NCBI RefSeq assembly: GCF_026314945.1
Contig: NZ_CP111121.1
Location: forward strand, 1,612,001 to 1,676,000
Reading direction: 5' to 3'
DNA: 64,000 nucleotides
Origin: Chryseobacterium fluminis
GTDB taxonomy: Bacteria > Bacteroidota > Bacteroidia > Flavobacteriales > Weeksellaceae
Shown here: piece after piece, positions 12,551 through 49,876 of the stretch
Layout of the letters: each line of letters starts with the position of its first letter
Numbering within the stretch: the first letter of the stretch is position 1
Notes under the pieces: model-generated
The model's input: only the letters and a program-made list of their open reading frames with translations
Told to the model about the DNA's origin: nothing
Database searches by the model: none
Translations under genes and position numbers: made by a program

Positions 12551-13485
12551 ATTATTTTGCTTTTTTTGATTATTCCTTCAGCTGTCGTTACGTTTTCATA
12601 GCCTAAACGCTGAAATAGATTTGAGTTAAAAGCTTCTCCATACGCTGGAAAACCTGCTTTTTGGGCTTCCCTTTTCCAGTGAGAGTTATTAAATATAAGC
12701 CCCATTTTACTATTCCCCGACAAATTAAATCCTCCCGCATTTAACATAAAATCCATTTTAGATTGCCCCGTCAAGAAGGCCGCTCTTCCTGCTGCAAAAT
12801 TTCCAACATCTCTGGCTGAAACATATACACCTTCCGCTATTTGTGAACCCGAATATAATCCTCCACCATTTTGGGTTTTATAATCATATTTATCACCATT
12901 TCCACCGTTCCATGCATAATTCATCCTTGCTACAAATCCTCCATTGGCTTCAGTATCTCTAGAAATTGCATCACTAAAATTATTAAGCCAATCTCTTGCT
13001 GCGTAAGAACCAAAATCTATCTTGCCTGTAGGATTTCCTTTTCCATTATTAAATGAATCCCAAACAAGTGTTCTTCCCATTCTCTCTCCACCACCCGAAG
13101 TATTTTCTTTAGAATAGTTTTGATTAAGTTCTTGTTTAGTTTCTTTAGCATTACCATCATGACGATAAACCCCCAAGTCACCATCATTATAAACCGCAAC
13201 AACATTTCCAAACTTATCAGTATGCGTACTTTCTCCAGACATTCCTGTAGGATCTTTAAACATTATTGGATTATTATAACCATAAGCGTAAGGCTGCAAC
13301 GTTTTTTCAGAAAGCGGATCGTGCTGCCCGAAAATTACAACATCCGGCATATAGAAACGAGCATTGAGATCATAGAACCCTGTTTCTTGTAGTTCTTGGG
13401 AAAGGTACTTGTACTGGTACGCATTCTGAGTAGTCAGTGTATAATGATGCAGTAAGCCAAACGGATAATAATTATTAACTTCCAC
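12532..13485 (-). pseudogene. Orphan RHS C-terminal toxin tip (displaced module)
   Basis: The frame opens within the end of an RHS core (VNNYYPFGLLHHYTLTTQN, then ARFYMPD, HDPLS and the boundary motif DPTGM near residue 82). About 235 residues of variable tip follow, with landmarks KYDYKTQNGGG, VYVSARDVGNFAAGRAA and a C-terminal IIWGDRK. The opening 110 bp is almost identical to the matching part of the intact RHS gene at about 14879-14992, but homology stops abruptly upstream, next to an in-frame TAA. There is no signal peptide or own start, only an internal GTG. This is the form of a displaced RHS tip kept as a recombination reserve. The toxin activity is not recognised. Confidence 0.8.
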
Positions 13486-34566: not shown

Positions 34567-35805
34567 TCAAAACTCCGGAATTTTTATTTTCCCATCTGTA
34601 AAAAACATGAAACAGAAAACGAGAGCCGAAATAATAAGAAAACTCAAAACAAAAGTTGTGATTTTATAAACATCTGTTTTTGATTCTTTTTTTCTTATAT
34701 TACTGCTGCTTTTACTAAAATCCGCGAAGTTGCCTCCGAACGGAGAATCTGTTTTCTGGCCCCAGTCATGTCCGGAATGAGCAGAAGAAACCGAATGCAG
34801 GGATTGGATATTTCTGTTTTGACTGATTTTTGAATGTAGTGATTTTTTATAATCATCATATAATCTTCTTACTTTTTCAGGTTTTTCGCCGCTGGACAAC
34901 GATTTCATTAATTCCTGAATTCTTACGGAATACTCATCATACTCTTTATTGATTATTTCGACTTCATTCTCGGATTCCTTAATTTTCTGCTCGTTTTCCA
35001 GATGCCGTTTTTTGTTTTGCTCAATCTTGCTATTGATTTCATTTACCAGTTTCCTGCGATCTTCTATGAGACTGTGGGCTTCCCTTTCAAATTCATTCAT
35101 GGTGTTGGTAATAATCTGTGACCGTTCCGCTTCAAGCTTTTGAATTTCACCCTCAAAACCATGGATATCAACGATTTTAAAAATACCTTTCTGTTTTACA
35201 AATTCAGCAACATCATAACTTTGAGTAAAATAAATCATTTCGTACGTATGGAGAAGATCAAGCGATCTTCTAAACAGGGACTGCAACTGTGACGGATGGG
35301 TTTCGGTGTACACCATGAGATAGCCGCCTGTATTTTTTAGCGAATACAACTCATCTATTTCTTTCCCATGAAAGCCTGCTTTGTCAAAATCCTTCGGTTT
35401 ACTTACTGAAAAACGGTCAGAATGATTTATTTTAATGGTATCATCCACTATATTTCTTTTTTCAAGATCATGATGAAATTCATTCAACAGGGCAATGGTG
35501 AGATTTTCACTGGCAATTTTGTCAGCAAACACCAATCCTGAACCTATAAAAGTTCCTGCTCTGTGGGAGCTGTGTTCCTTTGCGAAGGTGTATATACAGT
35601 AAGAAATCACATTGGTGTCCCCTATTTTTTCTTTTCGCATACCGTAAAGTCTGCTTCCCGGAAAAAGCTGTATCGCATCGGTTTTCAGATCAAATGTTTT
35701 CAGACTTTTAGCAATGGCGGGATCTCCACCTAAAAAGAATGACTGCCTGAAACCGTTCGGATTCCCAAAAGTTCCGAAGGCTGAAAAAAAATACTTCATG
35801 TCCAT
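34567..35805 (-). CDS. Coiled-coil, membrane-anchored protein, GTPase-associated (GAP1-N-like)
   Basis: A 412-residue protein. The start at 35805 (MDMKYFFSAFGTFGNPNG) shares one base with the GTPase stop (TAATG), so translation is coupled; the longer start at 35838 is less likely. The N-terminal about 200 residues, with FGNPNGFRQSFFLGG, resemble the GTPase-associated protein 1 N-terminal domain as I remember it. A long coiled coil follows (about 220-310), then a low-complexity linker, and one C-terminal membrane segment (about 385-405). Last gene of a three-gene operon. Likely an effector or sensor working with the GTPase; confirmation needs a profile search. Confidence 0.65.
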   Translation of the reverse strand: MDMKYFFSAFGTFGNPNGFRQSFFLGGDPAIAKSLKTFDLKTDAIQLFPGSRLYGMRKEKIGDTNVISYCIYTFAKEHSSHRAGTFIGSGLVFADKIASENLTIALLNEFHHDLEKRNIVDDTIKINHSDRFSVSKPKDFDKAGFHGKEIDELYSLKNTGGYLMVYTETHPSQLQSLFRRSLDLLHTYEMIYFTQSYDVAEFVKQKGIFKIVDIHGFEGEIQKLEAERSQIITNTMNEFEREAHSLIEDRRKLVNEINSKIEQNKKRHLENEQKIKESENEVEIINKEYDEYSVRIQELMKSLSSGEKPEKVRRLYDDYKKSLHSKISQNRNIQSLHSVSSAHSGHDWGQKTDSPFGGNFADFSKSSSNIRKKESKTDVYKITTFVLSFLIISALVFCFMFFTDGKIKIPEF

Positions 35806-36749
35806 TAATTTGTAAAGCTGAATTTTATACGTTCCCAAAAAGTACCTTCATAATCTAGATCGTATCCGACGATACTTCTGTACAGCCATTTTGATAAAAC
35901 TTCTGCCGTAGAAAGATTTAACAGGTTTATTCTTTCCTGTCCCGTCGAATTCTGTACACTGCCCACGGTATAATACGTTTTATTTAAGCCATAAGTATTG
36001 ATCCTCTGTGAGGTCATGGGCAGCCGGTCGTGAATAAAGCCATCCAGTTCTTCACTGTTTTCCACATCCATTCTTCCGGATTTATCCCATTTGGAAATAA
36101 CCAGCACCGCATTAACGGATTTTAAATTTTTACCTTTTCTTTCCAGCTCGTCAAGAAATTCATTAATTAAACTGTCTTCACGATGAGCCGATTCGTAGCT
36201 TGTGACAATAATGAATGTTATAGGAACTTTGGCATTCAGAAAAGCCTCAATGCTGCTGTGATAGCTTCCTCCTCTTCTGATCTCGTTATGATTTTCACCT
36301 GAGGTTTCCAGAAAGGTAAGATCTATGGGAACTACTTTTTTTGATTTATTATTCGGCTCAAAGACCATATCCAATCGGGTTACCTGGTCGCGTGAGGTTC
36401 TGTTGGGTAAATTTCCCTGTCGGATATTTTCAAAGAAATCCGACAGGAGCACATTGGCTTCTTTTGTATTTGGAGTTCCCAATTTAGGTCTTAAAACGCC
36501 TGCGTGAGATCTCAGATAATACAGCATGGTCGATAAAATCACCGATTTCCCGGATTCTGCTGTTCCAAAGAAGAAGACAAAATTGCTGTCTTTGTTCTTA
36601 ATGTCATTTGAAATCGTTGTTGCAATAGGAATAAAGTCTTCATGCTGGCCATTTTCTTTTCTCAGGTCAAGAGATAGCGGTTTTAAAGTTTCTTCCGGGT
36701 GAGATTCTTCGAACAAAAGCGGTCTTAAATTATCATTCTGATTTTCCAT
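35805..36749 (-). CDS. P-loop GTPase of a conflict-type system
   Basis: A 314-residue protein with a P-loop GTAESGKS (62-69), a switch-region strand LTFLETSGE and a base-recognition motif ISKWDKS in place of NKxD. These are features of a small TRAFAC-like GTPase. No membrane segment. It starts 3 bases after the membrane protein gene and ends in a TAATG overlap with the coiled-coil gene, so all three are one coupled unit. GTPase plus GAP1-like protein plus membrane protein has been seen as a predicted conflict or signalling system. Its trigger is unknown. Confidence 0.72.
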   Translation of the reverse strand: MENQNDNLRPLLFEESHPEETLKPLSLDLRKENGQHEDFIPIATTISNDIKNKDSNFVFFFGTAESGKSVILSTMLYYLRSHAGVLRPKLGTPNTKEANVLLSDFFENIRQGNLPNRTSRDQVTRLDMVFEPNNKSKKVVPIDLTFLETSGENHNEIRRGGSYHSSIEAFLNAKVPITFIIVTSYESAHREDSLINEFLDELERKGKNLKSVNAVLVISKWDKSGRMDVENSEELDGFIHDRLPMTSQRINTYGLNKTYYTVGSVQNSTGQERINLLNLSTAEVLSKWLYRSIVGYDLDYEGTFWERIKFSFTN

Positions 36750-36752
36750 GAT

Positions 36753-37778
36753 TTAGTTATTGGGAATTAAGGTGTTACCATTTCTCTTGTTTGTAAATAC
36801 ACTCCCGTTATTGTTTCTTCCGGCACCCGCGTTCGTCACCAGTAAAATGATGATCACGATAACAAAATCCAGCAAGATACAGCCTAACAGTACCACAAAC
36901 TGGTACATCCCGAAATGTTTAATCGCATGCTCAAAAGCGAAACCGATTTTCCCCACTTCCTGAGTCTGGGAAATTGCCGGTTCAAAATGAATTTTTTCAT
37001 TTCCTAATACCGTTTGTGCTCTGCTTCCCAATTTATTATATTCTGTAAGCGACTCATCGATAATGCCTTGTGAAAGATCATCTTTTTCCTTTTTTGATAA
37101 AAGCAAAAGATTCTGAATATTTTTGTTCCATTTTAATGAAGCATTATTAATGTCTGTTTTCAAAGCACGTTCCTCCGTCGATAAATCTGAAATCATGTTA
37201 TCAATCTGGTTACCCATTCTGTCCGCCAGATCTTCGTAGTCAGTCCCGACAGGGGTCAGCAGATCTATTTTCTGTCCCGATAATCTTTCAATATCTCTTA
37301 TCAATGACTGAGCCCTGGTTCCTATTCCTTTATTTCCGGGATCTTTGATCTGCTCCATCAGTTGCTTTTTCTTTATTTCGATATTCTGGGTGGTAACTTT
37401 ATTGTACTTATAGCTTAATTTAGATTCGACATCATTTTCAAGATCTGCAAATTTCCTATTGATATCCCGAAGCTCATCCGTATAGATATCGGTCCTCATA
37501 AATCTGGTGTACAGTGCGTTAAAATTGGCAATAAAGCAGAAGGAAGCTATAAAAATATAGATTCCGACCAGGCTTCCGGTAGGTCTCCCTTCCATTTTTG
37601 CCATTCGAAGCATCCAACACAAAAATAGAAGCAGCAATGAAAGAACCAGGGCGATCACAAATGATGCCGGGCCGAAAATCTGCTGCAGACCCAGCCACGT
37701 CTGGTAGAAGCTGACACTGATAAGTAATAATGCTAAAACCCCTAAAAAGAGATCTGTAGGTGTAGTTTTTTTATTCAT
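36753..37778 (-). CDS. Membrane coiled-coil protein of the GTPase triad
   Basis: A 341-residue protein. The start at 37778 (MNKKTTPTDLFLG) is preferred to 37898. Three hydrophobic segments lie at the N-terminus (about 10-75 for the first two, with a third near 85), then a long helical region predicted coiled coil (about 110-260), and one membrane segment near the C-terminus (YQFVVLLGCILLDFVIVIIILLV in part). No family recognised. As first gene of the operon with the GTPase it may anchor the complex at the inner membrane. Confidence 0.7.
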   Translation of the reverse strand: MNKKTTPTDLFLGVLALLLISVSFYQTWLGLQQIFGPASFVIALVLSLLLLFLCWMLRMAKMEGRPTGSLVGIYIFIASFCFIANFNALYTRFMRTDIYTDELRDINRKFADLENDVESKLSYKYNKVTTQNIEIKKKQLMEQIKDPGNKGIGTRAQSLIRDIERLSGQKIDLLTPVGTDYEDLADRMGNQIDNMISDLSTEERALKTDINNASLKWNKNIQNLLLLSKKEKDDLSQGIIDESLTEYNKLGSRAQTVLGNEKIHFEPAISQTQEVGKIGFAFEHAIKHFGMYQFVVLLGCILLDFVIVIIILLVTNAGAGRNNNGSVFTNKRNGNTLIPNN

Positions 37779-38139
37779 AATGATCCTGTTAATTTTTTGA
37801 GGTTTACTATTTAAACCGTCAATTTTATAATGCCCGAAACTACAAACAAGCATCATTAAAAAATTACGGGATTCCGTAATTCCCGGATCATTGGTCAAAA
37901 TACTCTAATTCCTGGTGTACAGGATTGACCCATTCATGTTTTATGATCTGCAATAATAATAAAAATGATCTACCCGCCATTACGGAAAGGCATAATTGAT
38001 AATATATCTTCTGATTATAATAAAGAAGAATAACGAATCGTTAACAATTCCCACCCAAATGTGATTTAACATCCCACATAAAAGCTTTTTTTTGTAAATT
38101 TCACCATAAAAAAATTACTCCTTACAAAAAAACTATACC
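37779..38139. other. Divergent intergenic region, GTPase triad / sensor operon
   Basis: About 360 AT-rich bases between two operons transcribed away from each other. It must contain both promoters; a weak TAAATTTC box at about 38094-38101 may serve the plus operon. No strong repeats or hairpins seen. Confidence 0.4.
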
Positions 38140-38844
38140 ATGCTAATTGATACTGTCTACCAATCTATTAAAAACTGGGAAACCCTGAGTGATTCCTATA
38201 AGAACGGAAATGAAAAAAGCGGAAAAGAGATCATGAGGTATCTTACCCAGGGATCCCATTTTTCCATTGAAGGAGAGAACATCGCAGAATGGAAAAAAAA
38301 CCTTGAACATTCGTCTGACAAGTCCATCCATGCATATCTGGGCATTGATCAGGATCAGCTGTTATTTTTTTTGATCGATTCTGAAAGTGATGCCAAAGCA
38401 GACTTTAGCCGTATTGTGATCAAAACCTTTAATCGCATCGCGCCGGAAGCCCAGCCAACACCTTCATCAGAACTGATTTCCAATGTTCCGATTACTTCCG
38501 AAGCAGCTGTTTACCGGAATTTCCGTTTCAATATGTATGGAAGCGCCTGGCTGGAAACTCAAAAATCAGATCCTTTCCGACTGATTTCTATTCCTTTCAA
38601 AGATTATGAAAGAATACCTCTTACCGATGCCGAATCGTGCACCTGCTTTTTCGGGCTGACCAATGAAACGATGAGAGATTCTTCAATAGCGGATTATCAT
38701 ATCGAAATCATCAGCGTGAAAGATATTGGAATTACGACGATGAGCCAGACAGCGGAAAATTATTCGACCCCGCGGCCTCCGTTCACGGCCAATGATCCTG
38801 CTGACCAATATCAACTATTGCTGAAAAGTGATGCCTACGTATAA
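38140..38844 (+). CDS. Hypothetical protein, first gene of a two-component operon
   Basis: A 234-residue soluble protein starting MLIDTVYQSIKNWETLSDSY. No signal peptide, no membrane segment and no family I recognise. Its 3' end overlaps the next gene by 17 bases, so it is co-translated with the membrane protein, histidine kinase and response regulator. This suggests a role in their signal, or as one of their outputs. It stands next to the reb locus, which runs towards it. Confidence 0.7.
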   Translation: MLIDTVYQSIKNWETLSDSYKNGNEKSGKEIMRYLTQGSHFSIEGENIAEWKKNLEHSSDKSIHAYLGIDQDQLLFFLIDSESDAKADFSRIVIKTFNRIAPEAQPTPSSELISNVPITSEAAVYRNFRFNMYGSAWLETQKSDPFRLISIPFKDYERIPLTDAESCTCFFGLTNETMRDSSIADYHIEIISVKDIGITTMSQTAENYSTPRPPFTANDPADQYQLLLKSDAYV

Positions 38845-39475
38845 CGAACTGTCATTTTATTTACAGTTTACCATAAACCTGACCCTGCTTATCGGATTTG
38901 GATTGTTTCTGAAACACAGAAAACAGGTACAAACGCTGTTAATAGTATTTCTGTTGGGCGAGCTAACGCTGGAATTTTCAGATCTCATTTTTCGCCTGAT
39001 GAAAATCAATACCGTGAATTTTTACATTTATTCCATAAGCCAGTGTTTTGGACTTTTAATGATCACGGGAATTTACAATGCCTATTTTTACAGGATTTCC
39101 CCGACGGTACGAGGATTGATCTGCTCTTTTGCCGGGGTATCATTATTAGTAAATATGATATATAAACAGGATATAGAATCGGTTACTTTTTACTCGAACA
39201 TCATTACCAATATTTTGATCTGCGGTTTTGCAGGGGTCTACTTTCTCCATATCCTGAGAGATACCAGAACAGATAAAACTTTATTTATCCTCAATATTTT
39301 TATCTTTTTATTTTTCTCGATAGAAAGTATTATTTCAACGACTTTTAATTTTTTAATTAATAATCATCTGGAATGGGTAGCGCCGGTCTGGCTTTTCAGA
39401 GGCGTATTGCTTTGGTCCTTTTACATTGCTTTTATTAACCTGGGATGCCGTACGGGGAAAATGAAAGTGTGGTAA
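38828..39475 (+). CDS. Multi-pass membrane protein, probable sensor partner
   Basis: A 215-residue protein with about seven hydrophobic segments spread over its whole length and little between them. No enzyme motif. The start at 38828 (or 38831) overlaps the gene before by 17 bases; the end overlaps the histidine kinase by 31 bases. Small seven-helix proteins of this type frequently precede short histidine kinases in Bacteroidota, and the kinase here has only one membrane helix of its own, so this protein may provide the sensing domain. Function inferred from order. Confidence 0.72.
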   Translation: MMPTYNELSFYLQFTINLTLLIGFGLFLKHRKQVQTLLIVFLLGELTLEFSDLIFRLMKINTVNFYIYSISQCFGLLMITGIYNAYFYRISPTVRGLICSFAGVSLLVNMIYKQDIESVTFYSNIITNILICGFAGVYFLHILRDTRTDKTLFILNIFIFLFFSIESIISTTFNFLINNHLEWVAPVWLFRGVLLWSFYIAFINLGCRTGKMKVW

Positions 39476-40203
39476 TTGTATGGATATGGATAGCTATCGG
39501 ACTGTTGTTTTTAACCACCGTATTCATCACACTGCTGTTGATCAGTTATATGAAAAGTGTCAGAAAAAATAAGCATAAGGTCATGAAAATGTTTCGGAAT
39601 AGCCAGACAGAATCCTGGGAAAACACCATATTTTTACAGGAAAAAGACCGGGAAAGACTGGCCGGAGAGCTACATGACAATATTATATCACGGCTTAACC
39701 TCATCCGGTTGAATGCTCTTCATAAAAACACAGATGAACTGCATCTGGACTTAAAAGACTCAATGCAGCTTATCCGGGAACTTACCCATAATCTGACTCC
39801 ACCGGATCTCAGCGAAATTGAGCTGGGCGACCTTATCTCAGATTATCTTGAGCAGGTGAAAAAGAATATCAGGGTAGATTACCATCTCTGCATTTTAGAA
39901 GAAAATATAGTAGATAACCAAATAAAATTAAATATTTTCCGAATACTTCAGGAGCTTATCAACAACAGTCTAAAGCATGCCGGAGCCTCAAAAATCACCC
40001 TGTCGGTAAGGATTTCAAAGGCTTCTCTCTGTTTCATTGCTGAAGACAACGGCAGGGGCTTTAATGTCGGAGATCATCCGTCAGGAATTGGTTTACGAAG
40101 TATTCGGTCCAGAACAAAACAAATGAACGCGATTTATAAACTGAAAACCAAACCACAGAGAGGGACACGATACATCTTCTTTGTTAATACCACAACCCTA
40201 TAA
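39445..40203 (+). CDS. Sensor histidine kinase, HisKA_3 type
   Basis: A 252-residue kinase with one membrane segment (about 10-35), the HisKA_3 dimerisation helix with phospho-acceptor His77 in LAGELHDNI, and a HATPase domain with N box (LQELINNSLKHAG), G1 (DNGRGF) and G2 (GIGLRSI) motifs. No extracytoplasmic sensor domain, so sensing probably depends on the preceding seven-helix protein. The LuxR-type response regulator follows after 2 bases, the normal partner of this kinase class. Confidence 0.92.
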   Translation: MPYGENESVVIVWIWIAIGLLFLTTVFITLLLISYMKSVRKNKHKVMKMFRNSQTESWENTIFLQEKDRERLAGELHDNIISRLNLIRLNALHKNTDELHLDLKDSMQLIRELTHNLTPPDLSEIELGDLISDYLEQVKKNIRVDYHLCILEENIVDNQIKLNIFRILQELINNSLKHAGASKITLSVRISKASLCFIAEDNGRGFNVGDHPSGIGLRSIRSRTKQMNAIYKLKTKPQRGTRYIFFVNTTTL

Positions 40204-40205
40204 AA

Positions 40206-40886
40206 ATGGAAAATAGAAAACTCAATATCGCCATTGCAGATGACGATTTACTTTTTGTACAATTGCTGAGAAACTATATCGATCAGGACGGCCGGTACCA
40301 TGTATGCCTTATATCGACCGGCGGAAATGCTTTTCTGGATGAAGTTAATAATCATTCTATAGACATTCTCATTCTTGATCTTCGAATGGCCGACGGTGAC
40401 GGTCTGAAAGTCATGTCTGCTTTATCGGAGAAAAAATCTGACCTCAAAATTGTTGTTCTTTCAAGTTTCTACAGAAGAAGTTTTATGGGGCAAATGCTGA
40501 AAATGGGTGCTCACGCCTTTTTACCGAAAGAAATTGAACCTGAAGAACTGCTGAATGTTCTGAATGCGGTATACATCACGGGCCATTACTTTTCCAGCGA
40601 ACAGGTAGACGTAATGAGAGGACAGATGTCTAACAAACTTCCCGAATTCCATGCTTTTTCTAAGGATGAACTTACCGATAGAGAAATTGATGTACTCCGG
40701 TTGGTTTGTCAGCAGCAAAGCACAAAAGAGATCGCCGACAGTCTTTTTATTTCTCCCAAAACCGTTGAAACCCACAAAACCAACCTCATGATCAAAACCT
40801 GTGTGAAAAATATGGCCGGACTGGTCATCTATGCCGTTCAGAATCGCATTGTAGATCCGAATGAAATCGTATTGTTTGACAAATAA
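40206..40886 (+). CDS. LuxR/NarL-type response regulator
   Basis: A 226-residue regulator with an N-terminal receiver domain (acidic pocket ADDD at 11-14, phospho-acceptor Asp58 in LILDLR, Lys near 110 in FLPKE) and a C-terminal LuxR helix-turn-helix (LTDREIDVLRLVCQQQSTKEIA). It is the partner of the histidine kinase. Its stop is about 220 bases from the convergent end of the reb operon. NarL-type regulators often bind short heptamers; repeated TTACCC motifs at 45562-45766 are candidate sites, untested. Confidence 0.92.
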   Translation: MENRKLNIAIADDDLLFVQLLRNYIDQDGRYHVCLISTGGNAFLDEVNNHSIDILILDLRMADGDGLKVMSALSEKKSDLKIVVLSSFYRRSFMGQMLKMGAHAFLPKEIEPEELLNVLNAVYITGHYFSSEQVDVMRGQMSNKLPEFHAFSKDELTDREIDVLRLVCQQQSTKEIADSLFISPKTVETHKTNLMIKTCVKNMAGLVIYAVQNRIVDPNEIVLFDK

Positions 40887-41058
40887 ATATCGGTCACAAG
40901 CCGGAAGAGGGAGGCAGGAAGTTAATATTAATCATTCCGACTGATAATAGGTTTAATTCAATCCTTTCCAAGCAATAATCTGAATTTATTTTCAAAAACA
41001 GATTACTTTCTTTTTCCTGCTTCCCTGCTTTCTTTCCTCATAAAATTACAAAATCAGA

Positions 41059-41074
41059 GAGTACCTGAGTACTC
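41059..41074 (-). terminator. Possible terminator at the end of the reb operon
   Basis: GAGTAC and GTACTC form a 6-bp stem around CTGA, with TGATTTTGTAATTTT after it on the minus strand. It lies about 35 bases past the stop of the last rebB gene. The T run is broken, so activity is uncertain. Confidence 0.45.
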
Positions 41075-41107
41075 CCTGAAGTAAAATCTAAAAACACCCT
41101 ATATAAA

Positions 41108-41368
41108 TTAAGGATTTAATACTTTAGCGATAGAAACCGCATCTGATATGGTATCCAGGCTATAGATCTGGATCACGCCCTGAGTGGTGGCTGCCTGACC
41201 TAAAATATTCTGTTGATTTTGCGTATTCACTGCATTTTCAAACATTATTCCTGTAGAATGTGCTGCCGACTGGTACACGTTGCTGAGAGCCATGGCCGGA
41301 GATTCTGCTACGACCTTTACGTTTGATTGGGTAACTGCGTCTGTAATCTGTTCGTTTACTGTTGCCAT
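41108..41368 (-). CDS. rebB: RebB-family R-body protein, paralog 1
   Basis: An 86-residue protein that is almost entirely the RebB/killing-trait domain: NEQITDAVTQSNVKVV, ESPAMALSNVYQSAAHSTGIM, ENAVNTQNQQNILGQAATTQG, IYSLDTISDAVSIAKVL. These blocks match R-body structural proteins, which polymerise into a coiled ribbon in the cytoplasm that can unroll suddenly. It is the last gene of the minus-strand reb operon. It differs from its neighbours mainly at scattered positions, indicating recent duplication and subunit specialisation. Confidence 0.92.
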   Translation of the reverse strand: MATVNEQITDAVTQSNVKVVAESPAMALSNVYQSAAHSTGIMFENAVNTQNQQNILGQAATTQGVIQIYSLDTISDAVSIAKVLNP

Positions 41369-41394
41369 AATGATAATTGTTTATTGGGATGAAA

Positions 41395-41413
41395 CAACCG
41401 GATGATCCGGTTG
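41395..41413. other. Hairpin between rebB paralogs 1 and 2
   Basis: CAACCGGAT-G-ATCCGGTTG is a perfect 9-bp inverted repeat with a one-base centre. Related hairpins lie in the next two spacers (weak at 41738-41750, perfect at 42070-42090). No T run follows, so it is not a simple terminator; RNA processing or stabilisation is more likely. Confidence 0.6.
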
Positions 41414-41444
41414 CCGTATTATTTCCGCGGGATGCGGAAAAGTT

Positions 41445-41705
41445 TTAAGGATTCAGAATTTTTGAGATCGATACTGCGTCTGCTATAGTATCCAGACTGT
41501 AGATCTGCGTGATTCCCTGAGTGGTCGCCGCCTGGGTTACAATATTCTGCTGATTTTGCGTGTTCACTGCGTTTTCAAACATGATGCCCGTAGAATGTGC
41601 AGCCGTCTGATACACATTACTTAGCGCTACTGCCGGAGATTCTGCGACTACTTTGACATTGGTCTGGGTAACTGCGTCTGTGATTTGTTGGTTTACTGTT
41701 GCCAT
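41445..41705 (-). CDS. rebB: RebB-family R-body protein, paralog 2
   Basis: An 86-residue RebB-domain protein with the same blocks as paralog 1 (NQQITDAVTQTNVKVV, AHSTGIMFENAVNTQNQQN, AATTQGITQIYSLDTIADAVSISKIL). The TQTN form is the version seen in other R-body proteins. It lies 76 bases upstream of paralog 1, with a hairpin in the spacer. Different paralogs may have distinct places in the ribbon or tune its stiffness. Confidence 0.92.
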   Translation of the reverse strand: MATVNQQITDAVTQTNVKVVAESPAVALSNVYQTAAHSTGIMFENAVNTQNQQNIVTQAATTQGITQIYSLDTIADAVSISKILNP

Positions 41706-41782
41706 AATGATGATTGTTTATTTGAGTTTAAAAAATACCGGGTTATCCGGCTGTACTTTTTGGTTGTTATTAAAAGACAGGT

Positions 41783-42043
41783 TTATGAATTGAGGATTTT
41801 AGCAATGGAAATAGCATCTGCAATGGTATCGTTGCTGTAGATCTGCGTAACCCCCTGTGTCGTTGCTGCCTGCGTAACCAGATTTTGCTGGTTCTGTGTA
41901 TTCACTGCATTTTCAAACATAATTCCTGTAGAATGTGCTGCGGTCTGATACACATTCCCTAAAGCCATTGCCGGGGATTCACCTACTACTTTCACATTGG
42001 ACTGCGTTACTGCATCCGTAATCTGTTCGTTTACTGTTGCCAT
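41783..42043 (-). CDS. rebB: RebB-family R-body protein, paralog 3
   Basis: An 86-residue RebB-domain protein (NEQITDAVTQSNVKVVGES, AMALGNVYQTAAHSTGIM, QNLVTQAATTQGVTQIYSNDTIADAISIAKIL). It differs from its neighbours at several positions, for instance GES for AES and SND for SLD. It sits 77 bases upstream of paralog 2. Clear member of the tandem array. Confidence 0.92.
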   Translation of the reverse strand: MATVNEQITDAVTQSNVKVVGESPAMALGNVYQTAAHSTGIMFENAVNTQNQQNLVTQAATTQGVTQIYSNDTIADAISIAKILNS

Positions 42044-42069
42044 AAATGATTATTTTTTGTGGTTTAAAT

Positions 42070-42090
42070 ACAACCGGATTTTCCGGTTGT
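42070..42090. other. Hairpin between rebB paralogs 3 and 4
   Basis: ACAACCGGA and TCCGGTTGT pair perfectly (9 bp) around TTT. It is nearly the same stem as at 41395-41413, in the equivalent position of the neighbouring spacer, and no T run follows in the reading direction. This repetition in intergenic positions argues for a kept RNA role. Confidence 0.6.
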
Positions 42091-42107
42091 AAGATTTTTA
42101 GGATACA

Positions 42108-42374
42108 TTAAGGATTAGGATTAAGGATTTTAGCGATAGAAACTGCATCGGATACCGTATCCATGCTGTAGATCTGCATAATTCCCTGTGTGGTAGCTGC
42201 CTGTCCTAAAATGTTCTGTTGATTCTGCGTATTGACCGCATTTTCAAACATGATTCCTGTAGAGTGTGCTGCTGACTGGTACACGTTGCTTAGTGCCATT
42301 GCAGGAGACTCACCTACTACTTTTACGTTAGACTGCGTTACTGCATCTGTGATTTGTTCATTGACTGTTGCCAT
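42108..42374 (-). CDS. rebB: RebB-family R-body protein, paralog 4
   Basis: An 88-residue RebB-domain protein ending KILNPNP, two residues longer than the others. Blocks as in paralog 1 (NEQITDAVTQSNVKVVGES, QSAAHSTGIM, NILGQAATTQGIMQIYSMDT). It lies 64 bases upstream of paralog 3. Upstream of it is a 445-base gap containing an inverted-repeat element. Confidence 0.92.
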   Translation of the reverse strand: MATVNEQITDAVTQSNVKVVGESPAMALSNVYQSAAHSTGIMFENAVNTQNQQNILGQAATTQGIMQIYSMDTVSDAVSIAKILNPNP

Positions 42375-42819
42375 AATTGTGATTGTTTGTTTTGAGATTT
42401 GCTCTCGGTTAATAATTATTTGATTTAAACTAGTTTTCTATTTGTTATAAACTCACCACAGATCATGCGGATGAAACGGATTTCAAAAGCATTGTTGTAG
42501 ACTTTTATGGATGTTGATTTGATCTGTACGGGTGGTTCCTGATACAATAGCTGAAACCGTGATCGGTAGATCTGTGTGAGTTTATCTCATCATTAATGTA
42601 AAAAGGATGCGGCTGAGATTCTAGTGTAACTAAAATAAATTTCTGCTGCGGATATGCTGCTGATCTGTTTTCTGAGGCTGAAGTATCATATTGATGAGAA
42701 TTGCTTTTGCAGATTGCAGCAGCATGATTCAGTGCAAAATATTGACCTGACTGTATATGTTGAGGGCACTGAATACTGTCTTCAGAGAAACTCAACCGCA
42801 TCCATGGTTTAAAAGGAGG
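42375..42819. other. Gap inside the reb locus
   Basis: About 445 bases without a convincing gene, interrupting an otherwise compact operon. It contains the inverted-repeat element at 42447-42585. A 98-codon minus-strand open frame (42505-42801) shows no Reb blocks and partly lies in the repeat. The rest may be a decayed gene, but no support for a specific one was found. Confidence 0.45.
42447..42585. repeat. Inverted-repeat element within the reb locus
   Basis: The arm ATAAACTCACCACAGATC...CGGAT...ACGGATTTC at 42447-42483 is matched in reverse complement by GAAACCGTGATCGG...GATCTGTGTGAGTTTAT at 42553-42585. The arms share ATAAACTCAC, ACAGATC and ACGG-TTTC with small gaps. The 139-bp unit is non-coding and MITE-like. 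Confidence 0.5.
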
Positions 42820-43047
42820 CTAAAAACGTCCTTTTCTGAAGGGTAAGGAGGTTTTGCATTGTAATCTTCCGGAGCCCATTTTCTTAACTCCCATTACATA
42901 ATTTCCTATTCCCAGCATGGCATCACGCTGTTGATTGAGTGCAGAATTCATCTGCATGATCCCTGTAGAATGTGCACTTACCTGGGCAGATATAGCTGCA
43001 GGCAGCGCGCTGGACATTCCTATGACGGCTGTGGTAATTTCATTCAT
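42820..43047 (-). CDS. Divergent RebB-like small protein
   Basis: A 75-residue protein starting MNEITTAVIGMSSALPAAISAQVS. It keeps SAHSTGIMQMNSALNQQ, equivalent to AHSTGIMFENAVNTQNQQ in the rebB paralogs, but lacks the N-terminal ITDAVTQxNVKV block and the C-terminal IYSLDT block. The last 15 residues are basic. Probably a specialised, shortened Reb protein such as a cap or assembly factor. The start at 43047 has a good position after the next gene upstream. Confidence 0.65.
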   Translation of the reverse strand: MNEITTAVIGMSSALPAAISAQVSAHSTGIMQMNSALNQQRDAMLGIGNYVMGVKKMGSGRLQCKTSLPFRKGRF

Positions 43048-43072
43048 AGTAATAAAGTTATTGATTCTAATT

Positions 43073-43468
43073 TTATTTACGGATATTCGAAAATCTTGCC
43101 TGCAGTTTATTCATTCTATCTGCAATTTTCAGTTCTTTTTCCTTTACTTTCATCATAGAAGACTCCTGAAGTTTTTTCAGCTGGGCATCATAATCCATAG
43201 GAGCAGGTTCTGCAGCAGGTACCGCTGTAGCTGCCTGGTAAGCCTGATGTTCCTGAACAGCCTGTTCCAGTTTCTCTAGCAGAGGAGCCAATGATGTAAG
43301 AGTGGCTTTGGTGGCTTTCTCCTTAATATAATTTATAATTTCATCTTCATGCCTGAGAACAAACGGCATAATATCTTCTCCCACTATTTCGGGTTCTGCC
43401 TGTTCCACTACTACCGGCGTAGAAATGGGAGGCGGATTTGTTTTTTTCCGGGTACTTCGTCTTCGCAT
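43073..43468 (-). CDS. Hypothetical protein of the reb locus
   Basis: A 131-residue charged protein with a basic start (MRRRSTRKKTNPPP), a central acidic helix, an alanine- and proline-rich linker (TAVPAAEPAP) and a C-terminal coiled coil (KLQESSMMKVKEKELKIADRMNKL in part). No membrane segment or known domain. It lies 25 bases upstream of the RebB-like gene. Coiled coil and linker suggest a structural or adaptor role. Confidence 0.7.
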   Translation of the reverse strand: MRRRSTRKKTNPPPISTPVVVEQAEPEIVGEDIMPFVLRHEDEIINYIKEKATKATLTSLAPLLEKLEQAVQEHQAYQAATAVPAAEPAPMDYDAQLKKLQESSMMKVKEKELKIADRMNKLQARFSNIRK

Positions 43469-43513
43469 GTTTATTGATTTTGGGTTAAATGGGTGAGATT
43501 AAGAATCCTTCTG

Positions 43514-44323
43514 TTATAAGAGGTAACCAATAAAATTGGAGGCGGCTGTCCAGTCTCTGTTGAGATTTTTTATTACATTATATCCTGTAATTTCCAGGGC
43601 AATACACCCTGAGATGGCATTCGCAGACATTATTTCTTTTAAAGCATCAGGAGGAAGGTTTAAAATATAATCATCAGGAATAACGGAAGCTTTCGTTGTA
43701 TTCGAAGGATTATCATTCACAATAATTTCCAGAACTTCCTGGAAATAGTGGGCAATGAGCCTGGCACCCTGAAATTCCAGTTCCCTTTTCAGTTCTACGA
43801 TTTCATCCGGTGTTACCAGGTCGGATATGCCATTCACATCTACATCATGCACGGAAAATAAGGCTTCTCCGGTATTGGACGCTGTGATCGTAATATCCGT
43901 TTTCAGGACACATTTTGATTTTTCGAGATTGACGGTCAGAAGTTGCGAATCTGTTTCCGGCTCTGCAATATCGCTTAAGGTACTAAGGGGAAGAATTCTC
44001 ACATTGCAGAAAAACGTCTGCTGCTCTTCCAGTTTGATCATGATCACTACTATTCCCATCGATTTATCCTTGGGTTCCATTACGAATGACTGGTAATTAA
44101 GTAATCTTTTCCCTTTGACACAGTTTACCTTTCTCACCATGGGCTGTATATTGATATCAGAAGTTCCCACAGTAAACACCGCCCGGTCTGTATTATTAGC
44201 AGGTGTTTTTATACTGAAATATTCATTATCCTGAGTTCTTGACAGATAAATGTTGTCATTGAGTTCTTTCAGAGAAGGCAGGTTTAAAATTTTTGCTGGT
44301 TTTGTTACGTTATAATAACTCAT
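43514..44323 (-). CDS. Hypothetical protein of the reb locus, beta-rich
   Basis: A 269-residue soluble protein (MSYYNVTKPAKILNLPSL) that is rich in beta-strand patterns in its first 170 residues and helical in the rest (PDEIVELKRELEFQGARLIAHY). No signal peptide or known family. Its ATG overlaps the stop of the preceding small gene by 4 bases, so the two are coupled. As the largest member of the reb operon it is a good candidate for a regulator of assembly or a nucleation protein. Function unknown. Confidence 0.7.
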   Translation of the reverse strand: MSYYNVTKPAKILNLPSLKELNDNIYLSRTQDNEYFSIKTPANNTDRAVFTVGTSDINIQPMVRKVNCVKGKRLLNYQSFVMEPKDKSMGIVVIMIKLEEQQTFFCNVRILPLSTLSDIAEPETDSQLLTVNLEKSKCVLKTDITITASNTGEALFSVHDVDVNGISDLVTPDEIVELKRELEFQGARLIAHYFQEVLEIIVNDNPSNTTKASVIPDDYILNLPPDALKEIMSANAISGCIALEITGYNVIKNLNRDWTAASNFIGYLL

Positions 44324-44547
44324 TTTTTAATTTTTTTTAGTTTTTCGATTAGTTTTGTAATTATATTTCTTTTTACAGGTTCACTGACATTGATTTCTGC
44401 GGGAATGACCGCTTCCTTAATTTCCGGCTTTACTAAGGGCTGAGTCAGTTTTACAGATTTTAAAACCAACTTCCCCCCGTCACCAGCAGCATTAAAGTTC
44501 TTGCTCACCTCATCTTTGGAGACCGGTATATCTGTAGGTTCCATCAC
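44320..44547 (-). CDS. Hypothetical small basic-tailed protein of the reb locus
   Basis: A 75-residue protein with a lysine-rich amphipathic C-terminus (NIITKLIEKLKKIKK) that could bind membrane or nucleic acid, and proline-containing extended middle. It overlaps the next gene by 4 bases (ATGA type). No family known. Coupled translation supports a real gene. Confidence 0.6.
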   Translation of the reverse strand: MMEPTDIPVSKDEVSKNFNAAGDGGKLVLKSVKLTQPLVKPEIKEAVIPAEINVSEPVKRNIITKLIEKLKKIKK

Positions 44548-44561
44548 GGGTGCCGGTGCTG

Positions 44562-45119
44562 TTACCCGTTTTTTTTTTCATCATCTTCCGCTTCGGGAGA
44601 CGTATCTGTATACGAAGGCAGGTTTTGTGTTTCTACAGGCGTTACCGGCTGTATCACTGAACTCTGATTTTGATTGGGAGCGGGACTTGCACTTTGATTT
44701 GGATTTGAATTGTAAATAGCGCCGGAGATTTTCGTTTTAGCTTCCGCATAGTCACTTACGATCTTAAATAAATCTTTCATCATATCATTTCCGTTGGCTG
44801 CTGAGAGATTCTGTACCTCTTTGTCATTGGTTCCACTTCCCGGATGAGGTTTTTCTTCACTGTAGGTTCCGTAAGTAAGGAAGTTATTAGCCAACCTGCT
44901 CAATGCAACAATTCCGACCTGCTCAAAGCTTTTTAAAAAAGACTGTAAATCCTGCACCATCATTCCTGTCGACTGCTCGATCATTACTTTGGCAATTCCT
45001 GACATCGGATCGGCTTTCGGAGGCGATAACACTTCAGTATTCACAAATACTACCGCCTTTTCTGCAGCGGTGGTCGCTATAGCTCCCTGAGATCCTGCTG
45101 TTTCATTGTTGTCATCCAT
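44562..45119 (-). CDS. Hypothetical protein of the reb locus
   Basis: A 185-residue protein with a helical core (MSGIAKVMIEQSTGMMVQDLQSFLKSFEQVGIVALSRLANNFL in part) and a long low-complexity Asn/Pro/Gln tail (PNQNQSSVIQPVTPVETQN). The STGMM block is reminiscent of STGIM in the RebB paralogs, so remote kinship is possible. No signal peptide. It lies 17 bases after the first gene of the operon and 14 before the next. Confidence 0.68.
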   Translation of the reverse strand: MDDNNETAGSQGAIATTAAEKAVVFVNTEVLSPPKADPMSGIAKVMIEQSTGMMVQDLQSFLKSFEQVGIVALSRLANNFLTYGTYSEEKPHPGSGTNDKEVQNLSAANGNDMMKDLFKIVSDYAEAKTKISGAIYNSNPNQSASPAPNQNQSSVIQPVTPVETQNLPSYTDTSPEAEDDEKKNG

Positions 45120-45136
45120 GATTATTAAGTTTTACA

Positions 45137-45352
45137 TTATCCTTTTAAAATTTTTATGGCATCGGCTACAATCGCAGGGTTAAGCTGATTCAGGTTCTGC
45201 TGGTTTGTCACCGAATTCTGAATGGAAATTCCGCTGGCATGGGTAGCCATCTGATAGAGCATGCTCATGGCCTGTGCCGGAGATTCGCCAAGCACGGTAA
45301 CATTGGTCTGCGTTACTGCATCGGTAGTCTGGTTGTTTACTGTATCTGCCAT
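45137..45352 (-). CDS. rebB: RebB-family R-body protein, operon-first paralog
   Basis: A 71-residue RebB-domain protein (NNQTTDAVTQTNVTVLGESPAQAMSMLYQMATHASGISIQNSV), shorter than the others because the AATTQG/IYSLDT part is replaced by a short NPAIVADAIKILKG end. It is the first gene of the minus-strand operon, with its promoter in the 590-base region upstream. Its early position and shortening suggest a distinct subunit type. Confidence 0.88.
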   Translation of the reverse strand: MADTVNNQTTDAVTQTNVTVLGESPAQAMSMLYQMATHASGISIQNSVTNQQNLNQLNPAIVADAIKILKG

Positions 45353-48204: not shown

Positions 48205-48927
48205 TTATAATCCTTTCTTTCCTTCTATCCAATATGCCTGGGATCTGATACACCTGGCTGAAACACCGTTTGCCTTCAGGAATTTCCTCACAAGAGCCAT
48301 AGTCTGCCCGTTTCCGGTAAGATAAAAAACCACCTCATCATGATTAATTGCCCATTTTTCTTCTCTTAAAAACTCCTTTAAAGTTTCTATCAGCTGTAAT
48401 GGATTGTTTTTGCCGACATAATATCCAAAGAGCCCGAGACTTTCCAAATATTCCGGCTGGTCGAGCTCGTGAAGGCATAAAAATGAGCTATCCGCTTTTT
48501 CCGCAGCCTCTTTTATAGAAATGGAAGTTCCCAAAGAAGTTTCATCTCCAACAGAAAAGTGAATTTTTGCATCAGGAGCAAAGAATCTTCTTCCTCTCGG
48601 AATGAGAATCTTCAAAGAATCATTTTCTGACAGGCGGCCGATAAAACGGCACGCTGCTGAAGCTTTATCATGAAGATGAAAAATGACTTCAAAACAGCCC
48701 TCTTCTACATTAAAATTAAATGGCGAATAATTGCGGAAATCCCTTTCATTGATTCGGATTCCTATGGCATAAGCAGGTTCGAAATACAGATTTTCCAGGT
48801 TTGCTTTAAATTGTATTCTGCACAGCTGAGCTGAAATATATTCAGTTCTGATAATGGTACAGTCTCTAAATTTCGATGACATCACATTCACTACTGCGTC
48901 ATTGATCCATTTGGGTAAACTAGACAT
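48205..48927 (-). CDS. Siderophore-interacting-protein-type flavoprotein
   Basis: A 240-residue protein of the SIP/FNR group: an FAD-binding barrel with the RxYS motif (RNYSPFNF) and a C-terminal NAD(P)H-binding domain ending in the typical QAYWIEGKKG, as in SIP proteins (AYWxxG). Known members reduce ferric siderophores in the cytoplasm to release iron. It is downstream of an AraC regulator on the same strand, 79 bases apart, and may be under its control. The reductase role is inferred from the family. Confidence 0.8.
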   Translation of the reverse strand: MSSLPKWINDAVVNVMSSKFRDCTIIRTEYISAQLCRIQFKANLENLYFEPAYAIGIRINERDFRNYSPFNFNVEEGCFEVIFHLHDKASAACRFIGRLSENDSLKILIPRGRRFFAPDAKIHFSVGDETSLGTSISIKEAAEKADSSFLCLHELDQPEYLESLGLFGYYVGKNNPLQLIETLKEFLREEKWAINHDEVVFYLTGNGQTMALVRKFLKANGVSARCIRSQAYWIEGKKGL

Positions 48928-49006
48928 GTTTTTTTATTGCAAAGGAAGCTGCAAAACAGGTGTCTTTCAATAGCTGTTCCAAGGTATTGGTTGGACTATC
49001 CGTGGA

Positions 49007-49876
49007 TTACAGTGATTCCTGAGGCTTTTGTCGGAATTCTGAGGGCGACTGATTTTCAAGCCTTGAAAATAAACGGCTGAAATAGGCGTGATCGCTGTAT
49101 CCCAACTCATAGGCAACTTCTTTCACCGTAAGGTCTGTAAATACCAGCAGTCTTTTAGCTTCTATTAAAATTTCCGAATGTATCCAGTATTGCGCGGACT
49201 TGCCTGTAACTTCCCGAATCACTTCCGTCAGATATCCTCTTGAAATATGCAAAAGTTCTGCGTAAGATGATGGACTTTTCAATGTTCTATACTTTTTCCG
49301 CACCAAAATTCTGAAGGCTCTTGTAAGCTGTGATGCACGGTTTTGATCAGATATGTCAAGACTGTTCTCCTCAGAATACCTGTGAGCAACCATTCCCATC
49401 AATGCGCTCAGCAAAGATCGGACTGTTAAAAGACGTTCCTTTGAAGCAAACCCTCCATCGTTACAATATCCGTACAGCAAATCCGCTGTCATACTTATTT
49501 TTGCGATTGATTCCATATCCAGAAGCAGAGGTTCTATTTTTGTCAGGGATTCCTCGAAAACTGAACGTACCGTATCCGGAACAAAATCGGCCTTTACCGC
49601 CACAAACCAGCCTACAACATCTTCCATAAGAAGTCCCTGATGCACCTGCCCCGGCATAATGCAGAAGATACAGGATTCCCTTGCTTCAATAACAGCAAAA
49701 TCTATCATCATTCTCACAAATCCCTGTTCCATGATGGTGAAAATATAGTGGCTGTCACGATGAATTCCCCGGTCCAACAGAGCTTTCCGGGCATGTTGGG
49801 TATGATTTATCTTTTCAACAATGAATTGATGTGCAGAAATACCCGTTAAGTCATAGGTCGGAATATTTGGTCTCAT
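49007..49876 (-). CDS. AraC-family transcriptional regulator
   Basis: A 289-residue regulator: an N-terminal ligand-binding part with a cupin-like pattern (about 30-100) and a C-terminal double helix-turn-helix with VKEVAYELGYSDHAYFSRLFSRLENQSPSEFRQ, the canonical AraC signature. It probably controls the SIP-type gene right after it, and possibly itself. The inducer is unknown; iron or siderophore status is a guess from the neighbour. Confidence 0.9.
   Translation of the reverse strand: MRPNIPTYDLTGISAHQFIVEKINHTQHARKALLDRGIHRDSHYIFTIMEQGFVRMMIDFAVIEARESCIFCIMPGQVHQGLLMEDVVGWFVAVKADFVPDTVRSVFEESLTKIEPLLLDMESIAKISMTADLLYGYCNDGGFASKERLLTVRSLLSALMGMVAHRYSEENSLDISDQNRASQLTRAFRILVRKKYRTLKSPSSYAELLHISRGYLTEVIREVTGKSAQYWIHSEILIEAKRLLVFTDLTVKEVAYELGYSDHAYFSRLFSRLENQSPSEFRQKPQESL

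Follow-up and report, generated by a model that had tools for sequence, protein, structure and literature searches.

The R-body locus of the window

We examined 64,000 nt of the Chryseobacterium fluminis genome (hereafter, the window), which contain an R-body (reb) locus where genes of the RebB family are found together with accessory genes, a folded RNA (element 1) and a two-component system. Its features lie on the minus strand unless the plus strand is given. Six genes belong to, or resemble, the RebB family (PF11747, curated cut-off of 24 bits):

41108..41368, minus strand: rebP copy, last of the array (PF11747, 96.9 bits)
41445..41705, minus strand: rebP copy (PF11747, 94.8 bits in the whole-genome scan)
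41783..42043, minus strand: rebP copy (PF11747, 99 bits)
42108..42374, minus strand: rebP copy, first of the array (PF11747, 100.4 bits)
42820..43047, minus strand: orf75r, divergent RebB relative (PF11747, 21.7 bits, under the cut-off)
45137..45352, minus strand: rebD-like gene (PF11747, 77 bits)

The four rebP paralogs (41108-42374) are nearly identical and form a co-directional cluster with the rebD-like gene and orf75r. The initial annotation of this DNA had reported five RebB paralogs and one divergent relative, and had suggested a profile search. Their coordinates and strand are borne out, and in that search five of the six genes exceed the cut-off (94.8-100.4 bits for rebP and 77 for rebD), while orf75r falls short in the window. 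Orthologues of orf75r surpass the cut-off in some other genomes (e.g., 40.4 bits in G429), and the profile of its family aligns with that of rebP at 95% probability. In the whole genome there are six RebB matches at E <= 10, every one inside the locus. The rebP translations carry the motifs QITD, KVVAE or KVVGE, NAV and QQN, the signature listed for RebB being QITD, KXXXD/E, NAV and QQ/QQQ (PMC13430693); QITD is absent from the RebD-like and orf75r translations.

Conserved gene order

The genus sample comprised 148 genomes, 64 of them with a RebB match: 49 with at least five matches (“multi-RebB” genomes) and 15 with one or two. Gene order was compared in 28 loci fetched from the 49 multi-RebB genomes, plus the window. 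All of them present, with the exceptions given below, the order rebD-orf185-orf75-(orf269)-orf131-orf75r-gap-rebP, with three to six rebP copies per cassette, and a convergent operon (orf234-membrane gene-histidine kinase-response regulator) that faces the cassette. As exceptions, orf234 was not detected and the membrane gene is partial in L057 and L059; orf75 gives no separate match in L057, L059, L060 and L075; L074-L079 lack orf269; and in L061 orf269, one rebP and the membrane gene are split.

As family matches, motifs and conserved gene order agree, the identification as an R-body locus, of an already known kind, is well supported. The initial annotation had stressed its presence in a free-living flavobacterium. 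The locus is indeed there, but it is not new, as a 2026 survey already lists Chryseobacterium among the genera in which R-body genes are prevalent and reports groups 2 and 3 in Flavobacteriales (PMC13430693); in 2013, Kordia had been given as the sole exception outside Proteobacteria (PMC3583457). The same annotation spoke of a contractile weapon or release device, which does not agree with the description of R-bodies as extendable, not contractile (PMC8322103). No toxin gene was identified in the cassette. That annotation had noted neither that the intervening genes are conserved members of the cassette nor the structured RNAs within 42375-42819, the slip site and the two-component system.

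A structured RNA between the accessory and subunit genes

42599..42808, minus strand: structured RNA (element 1), with outer stem GGATGCGG/CCGCATCC followed by a T-tract, and inner helices

The gap between orf75r and the first rebP measures 445 nt in the window and contains islands of conservation. Element 1 corresponds to its first 210 nt; in nearly all loci it begins at most 30 nt from the orf75r stop, and it ends with the T-tract. In one locus the gap reaches 1,600 nt (L052:11346-12911), compared with about 450 nt in the others, and element 1 is still found there at 12667-12905.

Of 200 shuffled versions of the window copy, 199 fold less well than the original (z -4.1). In an alignment of 23 sequences made without reference to structure, 86.0% of the cells are paired in a six-helix structure, as opposed to 38-45% when the partners are slid. 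In this same alignment, pairs with double changes number 20 (13.3 ± 1.9 when shuffled) and double-changed cells 62 (26.5 ± 4.2 when shuffled); further pair types, one of the five measures, did not exceed the shuffled values (174 of 500 shuffles). A model-fitted alignment of 45 distinct sequences, which is biased towards the structure, gives 89.6% of paired cells, 31 pairs with double changes (versus 16.0 ± 2.1) and 151 such cells (versus 45.7 ± 7.1). Compared with column-shuffled alignments, element 1 reaches a z of -14.3, versus +0.67 to -2.34 for seven coding stretches of the same loci. Additionally, the codon-position ratio, which describes how sequence differences are spread over codon positions (about 1 when even), is 0.96-1.05 for element 1 and 1.73-8.51 in seven gene families of the cassette. 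Since the outer stem is almost invariant, it is of little use in judging covariation. Covariation in element 1 thus exceeds both the shuffled and the slid controls, as is expected of a structured noncoding RNA. Conserved unpaired stretches and conserved inner loop bases are also present within the fold. No relevant Rfam family matched, either up to E 5 in the window stretch or up to E 1 in L055, and we found no published account of this 210-nt structured RNA; element 1 is apparently an undescribed folded RNA.

It is very improbable that this palindromic stretch works instead as DNA, for instance as a binding or recombination site. Such a role would fit the observation that the antisense strand folds equally well, but G-U cells outnumber A-C cells (115 to 80), which moderately favours the reb-sense strand, and the place and orientation of the element relative to the reb genes are fixed in the loci examined.

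Distribution of element 1

The model of element 1 matches 44 of the 148 genus genomes, with one copy in each: 43 of the 49 multi-RebB genomes and, among the 99 others, only G124, where the match is marginal (37 bases). Twenty-three of the 43 contribute to the alignment of the model and 20 are independent of it; the matches in G028 and G128 are weak. No match was obtained in the 15 genomes with one or two RebB matches. The model missed six multi-RebB genomes (G012, G061, G109, G112, G125 and G133). A smaller search gave a weak match in G133 (L060, 26.9 bits), G012 (L048) has an 88-nt hairpin in the place of element 1, and G109 (L050) shows a similar short spacing. A loose pattern of the outer stem fits 43 of the 49 distinct gaps. 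Among 376 genomes of the order, searched with strict filters that may lose weak matches, 16 carry the element, all of them in the genus, which makes it a specific marker as well. RebB itself is rare outside the genus: 25 of 395 genomes were positive in the order and six of 395 in the phylum (the two samples overlap), with one positive outside the genus in each case.

These observations bear on two other explanations of element 1. In the first, it would be a separate small RNA derived from the 3′ end of the accessory transcript and acting in trans or in ribbon assembly, as its position directly after a stop codon and its final T-tract would lead one to expect; the conserved unpaired stretches also agree with this. 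We find it unlikely, since there is one copy per genome and its position is constant, which a local role would explain equally well, and the 88-nt form retains little that could act in trans. In the second, element 1 would be just an elaborate terminator that insulates two gene groups, without sensing. Although the GC-rich outer stem with its T-tract, and the likeness of the 88-nt form to a plain hairpin, are in line with it, double changes preserve pairs in inner helices that a terminator does not need, and inner loop bases are conserved; this explanation is, consequently, improbable too.

A putative slip site in orf185

44562..45119, minus strand: orf185, accessory gene immediately downstream of rebD, candidate counterpart of RapA
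44568..44578, minus strand: slip site, A10 run then C, with the heptamer A AAA AAC in register with orf185
44320..44578, minus strand: orf75, extension of orf185 in the -1 frame, an open frame that runs from the A-run as far as its stop codon
43514..44323, minus strand: orf269, accessory gene found in 42 of 49 multi-RebB genomes
43073..43468, minus strand: orf131, conserved accessory gene with no family match over cut-off

The end of orf185 reads GAA AAA AAA AAC NNN stop, and orf75 continues in the -1 frame from the A-run. Among 49 distinct loci, this layout is kept in 41, 40 with A10 and one (L054) with A9 and the same heptamer; variants of the A10 form have an AAG ending (L080) or the stop three codons later (L178). 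Of the eight loci that do not fit, three are continuous fusions (L057, L075 with A11, and L152), two have A9 and a different frame (L081 and L158), one has A10 with orf75 outside the -1 frame (L049), and two fit neither (L060 and L151). The codon-position ratio of orf75 (1.73) is coding-like, although it is the weakest of the seven gene families. From the conserved heptamer in register, the stop after it and the coding -1 frame, a programmed -1 slip in orf185 is likely. We found no published account of a slippery A-run that joins orf185 to a coding -1 extension.

It is somewhat unlikely that the A-run is a phase-variation tract, or that orf185 and orf75 are two plain genes with no programmed slip. 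The length of the run does vary, with A9 and another frame in L081 and L158, and A11 with an in-frame fusion in L075, but the run, register and stop are more uniform across the 40 A10 loci, together with the L054 heptamer, than free variation would predict. A programmed -1 slip site of the A AAA AAG/C type is found in dnaX. The site in orf185 resembles it in having the heptamer in register, a stop shortly after and, here, a conserved coding -1 frame, and differs from it in lying within an R-body accessory gene; the slip may be made by the ribosome or by the polymerase.

The RapA protein encoded in the reb cluster of Pseudomonas aeruginosa PA14 has been reported to accompany R-bodies (PMC8322103). 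As regards membership of RapA / group S4, the similarity of orf185 to a Burkholderia rebD neighbour, a comparator that is not PA14 RapA itself, is weak (E 0.077 with hmmsearch; P 0.003 and 10.7% probability with hhalign). As for orf269, it is present in 43 of the 148 genus genomes, 42 of them multi-RebB, the remaining one (G162) lacking RebB and having only a broken copy. Its named relatives are from Chryseobacterium, except two from Flavobacterium, and 30 of 31 named contigs that carry it are labelled Chryseobacterium, the other one being labelled Weeksellaceae. In two genomes, a further, diverged orf269 copy (45-46% identical) lies next to orf234, at the opposite end of the cassette (L046:7097-8002 in G142 and L052:4182-5102 in G161). 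A broken orf269 in a genome without RebB (L062:8803-9251) looks like a relic of a lost cassette.

Signals around the rebP array

42448..42584, minus strand: element 2, long interrupted hairpin (z -7.2)
42427..42436, minus strand: palindrome AAACTAGTTT, proposed regulator site, 63 nt before the first rebP start
42070..42090, minus strand: small CCGG stem-loop between two rebP copies, with similar ones before other downstream copies (read by eye)
41050..41079, minus strand: hairpin resembling a terminator, downstream of the last rebP (identified by eye)

In element 2, 87.6% of the cells are paired (33-46% when slid), and 33 cells are double-changed, versus 18.0 ± 3.7 when shuffled; our searches returned no published account of this second structured stretch either. 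In 25 of 29 loci, the palindrome AAACTAGTTT occurs, within one mismatch, 61-68 nt ahead of the start of the first rebP; it never occurs in the 600 nt that precede rebD. The loci of eight relatives also have CCGG-type stem-loops, some of them weaker, ahead of downstream rebP copies, and a terminator-like hairpin behind the last one.

The two-component system and flanking genes

38140..38844, plus strand: orf234, first gene of the convergent regulatory operon, no Pfam match
38828..39475, plus strand: membrane protein, proposed sensor partner
39445..40203, plus strand: histidine kinase (HATPase_c, 43.5 bits)
40206..40886, plus strand: NarL/LuxR-type response regulator (Response_reg, 76.6 bits; GerE, 63.6 bits)

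Of the 49 multi-RebB genomes, only G112 lacks the membrane gene; in three of the remaining 48 (G028, G128 and G141) it is broken or split. In the other 99 genus genomes, only two weak matches (26-28% identity) were found. The synteny of Raymann Group 2, in which genes for sigma factors and Crp-like regulators are frequently, but not universally, near reb, is not observed, since no gene tested at 35805-49876 matches a sigma-factor or Crp family over the cut-off.

Two further gene pairs lie nearby. The first (35805-37898), a DO-GTPase1 family gene (28 bits, cut-off of 27) and a membrane gene without a family match over the cut-off, flanks the regulatory operon, and its relatives adjoin the cassette in L059 and L075. 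The second (48205-49876) consists of a gene with sub-threshold similarity to siderophore-interacting proteins and an AraC-type regulator; its relatives, some of them cut or split, adjoin the cassette on either side in 17 of the 28 fetched loci.

A model for the control of the cassette

We lean slightly towards a model in which the locus forms a full R-body cassette under dedicated control, where element 1 gates readthrough and the regulator drives rebP. The parts and their linkage are read from the sequence, and the functions proposed here are what we infer from them. The rebP products would form the ribbon, with RebD, orf75r, orf131 and both forms of orf185, the short one and the one extended by slipping, as helpers in its assembly; these two forms of orf185 may tune the assembly. 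A cue would be perceived by the membrane protein, the kinase and the regulator, which would then activate rebP through AAACTAGTTT. Element 1 would be a terminator whose loop holds a folded domain and would separate accessory from subunit expression, as transcription from rebD would stop before rebP unless a ligand, a protein or an RNA alters the fold. Thus, accessory proteins would be made first and the bulk of the subunits only on command, and the ribbon might then act on a grazer or host, by analogy with reports on other R-bodies.

Several points weigh against this model. Element 1 folds comparably well when taken from the antisense strand (z -13.3), and A-C cells are not uncommon in the alignment (80, versus 115 G-U). 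In a small clade the element consists of just an 88-nt hairpin (L048), which shows that the inner domain can be dispensed with in some genomes. The statistics of element 2 are weaker than those of element 1, AAACTAGTTT is absent in 4 of 29 loci, and a promoter between element 1 and rebP, if present, would make readthrough less important. Furthermore, the transcription, ribbons and target of the cassette are predicted from the sequence.

Element 1 may represent a new RNA class. We regard as evenly balanced the proposal that it founds a class of R-body RNAs, either as a switch, embedded in a terminator, by which a cellular signal would commit the cell to ribbons or as an RNA with a part of its own in ribbon assembly, in both cases together with a long orf185 product made by slipping.

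Relation to known systems

The closest known systems are the Group 2 reb clusters described in proteobacteria such as P. aeruginosa PA14, Ruegeria pomeroyi and Burkholderia (PMC3583457, PMC8322103, PMC13430693). They share with the present locus RebP-like subunits (up to 68.8% identical, in a Ruegeria plasmid) and a RebD-like gene with an accessory gene directly behind. By contrast, there is a sigma factor in Ruegeria and a sigma factor plus a Crp/Fnr regulator in Burkholderia where a two-component system is found here, and orf185 matches the Burkholderia neighbour weakly. In PA14, expression of rebP1 is reported to require RcgA and the sigma factor FecI2 (PMC8322103). The R-body genes that the 2026 survey describes in Chryseobacterium and Flavobacteriales are alike in genus, in subunits of groups 2 and 3 and in having several copies per cluster, but its relevant passages mention neither an RNA nor a slip site, and it ignored co-located genes without Reb homology (PMC13430693). 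Nor did our searches return a published account of a conserved cassette of the type rebD-orf185-orf75-(orf269)-orf131-orf75r-RNA-rebP(x3-6) with a dedicated two-component system oriented towards it. This system, together with the structured RNA and the slip site, sets the locus apart from known R-body loci.

The thiS motif, described as a riboswitch aptamer embedded in a terminator (PMC6478431), resembles element 1 in the folded domain predicted within a terminator-like stem with a T-tract. Element 1 is, however, much larger, has no known ligand and lies after a stop codon inside a gene cluster, and not in the leader of a metabolic gene.

Commitment to R-bodies has been linked elsewhere to sigma factors, to Crp-like or other transcription factors and to a TetR-type regulator (PMC3583457, PMC8322103, PMC13430693). 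How a free-living cell commits to R-bodies is largely an open question. In this genus, which has many carriers, a different solution is seen, in which a two-component system is combined with a folded RNA placed precisely where the accessory genes give way to the subunit genes, and with a slip site in a gene of putative assembly function. Element 1 and the slip site are kept in dozens of related genomes and, as each control part is a small, removable piece of DNA, the control and order of R-body assembly can be tested directly.

A 2026 paper counts R-bodies among the routes by which a ribosome-cleaving enzyme of P. aeruginosa might be delivered (PMC13189344); no enzyme like it was identified in the cassette. 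The second-listed plasmid match to rebP (57.5% identical) is found in Candidatus Bealeia paramacronuclearis, on a 57-kb plasmid with six annotated RebB genes (L186). Finally, 11 of the 15 genomes with one or two RebB matches (L063-L073) have a solitary RebP-like gene, without other cassette genes, at one shared chromosomal site; by our reading, a putative Mur-ligase-like gene follows it in all 11 and a putative aldo/keto reductase gene precedes it in 10.

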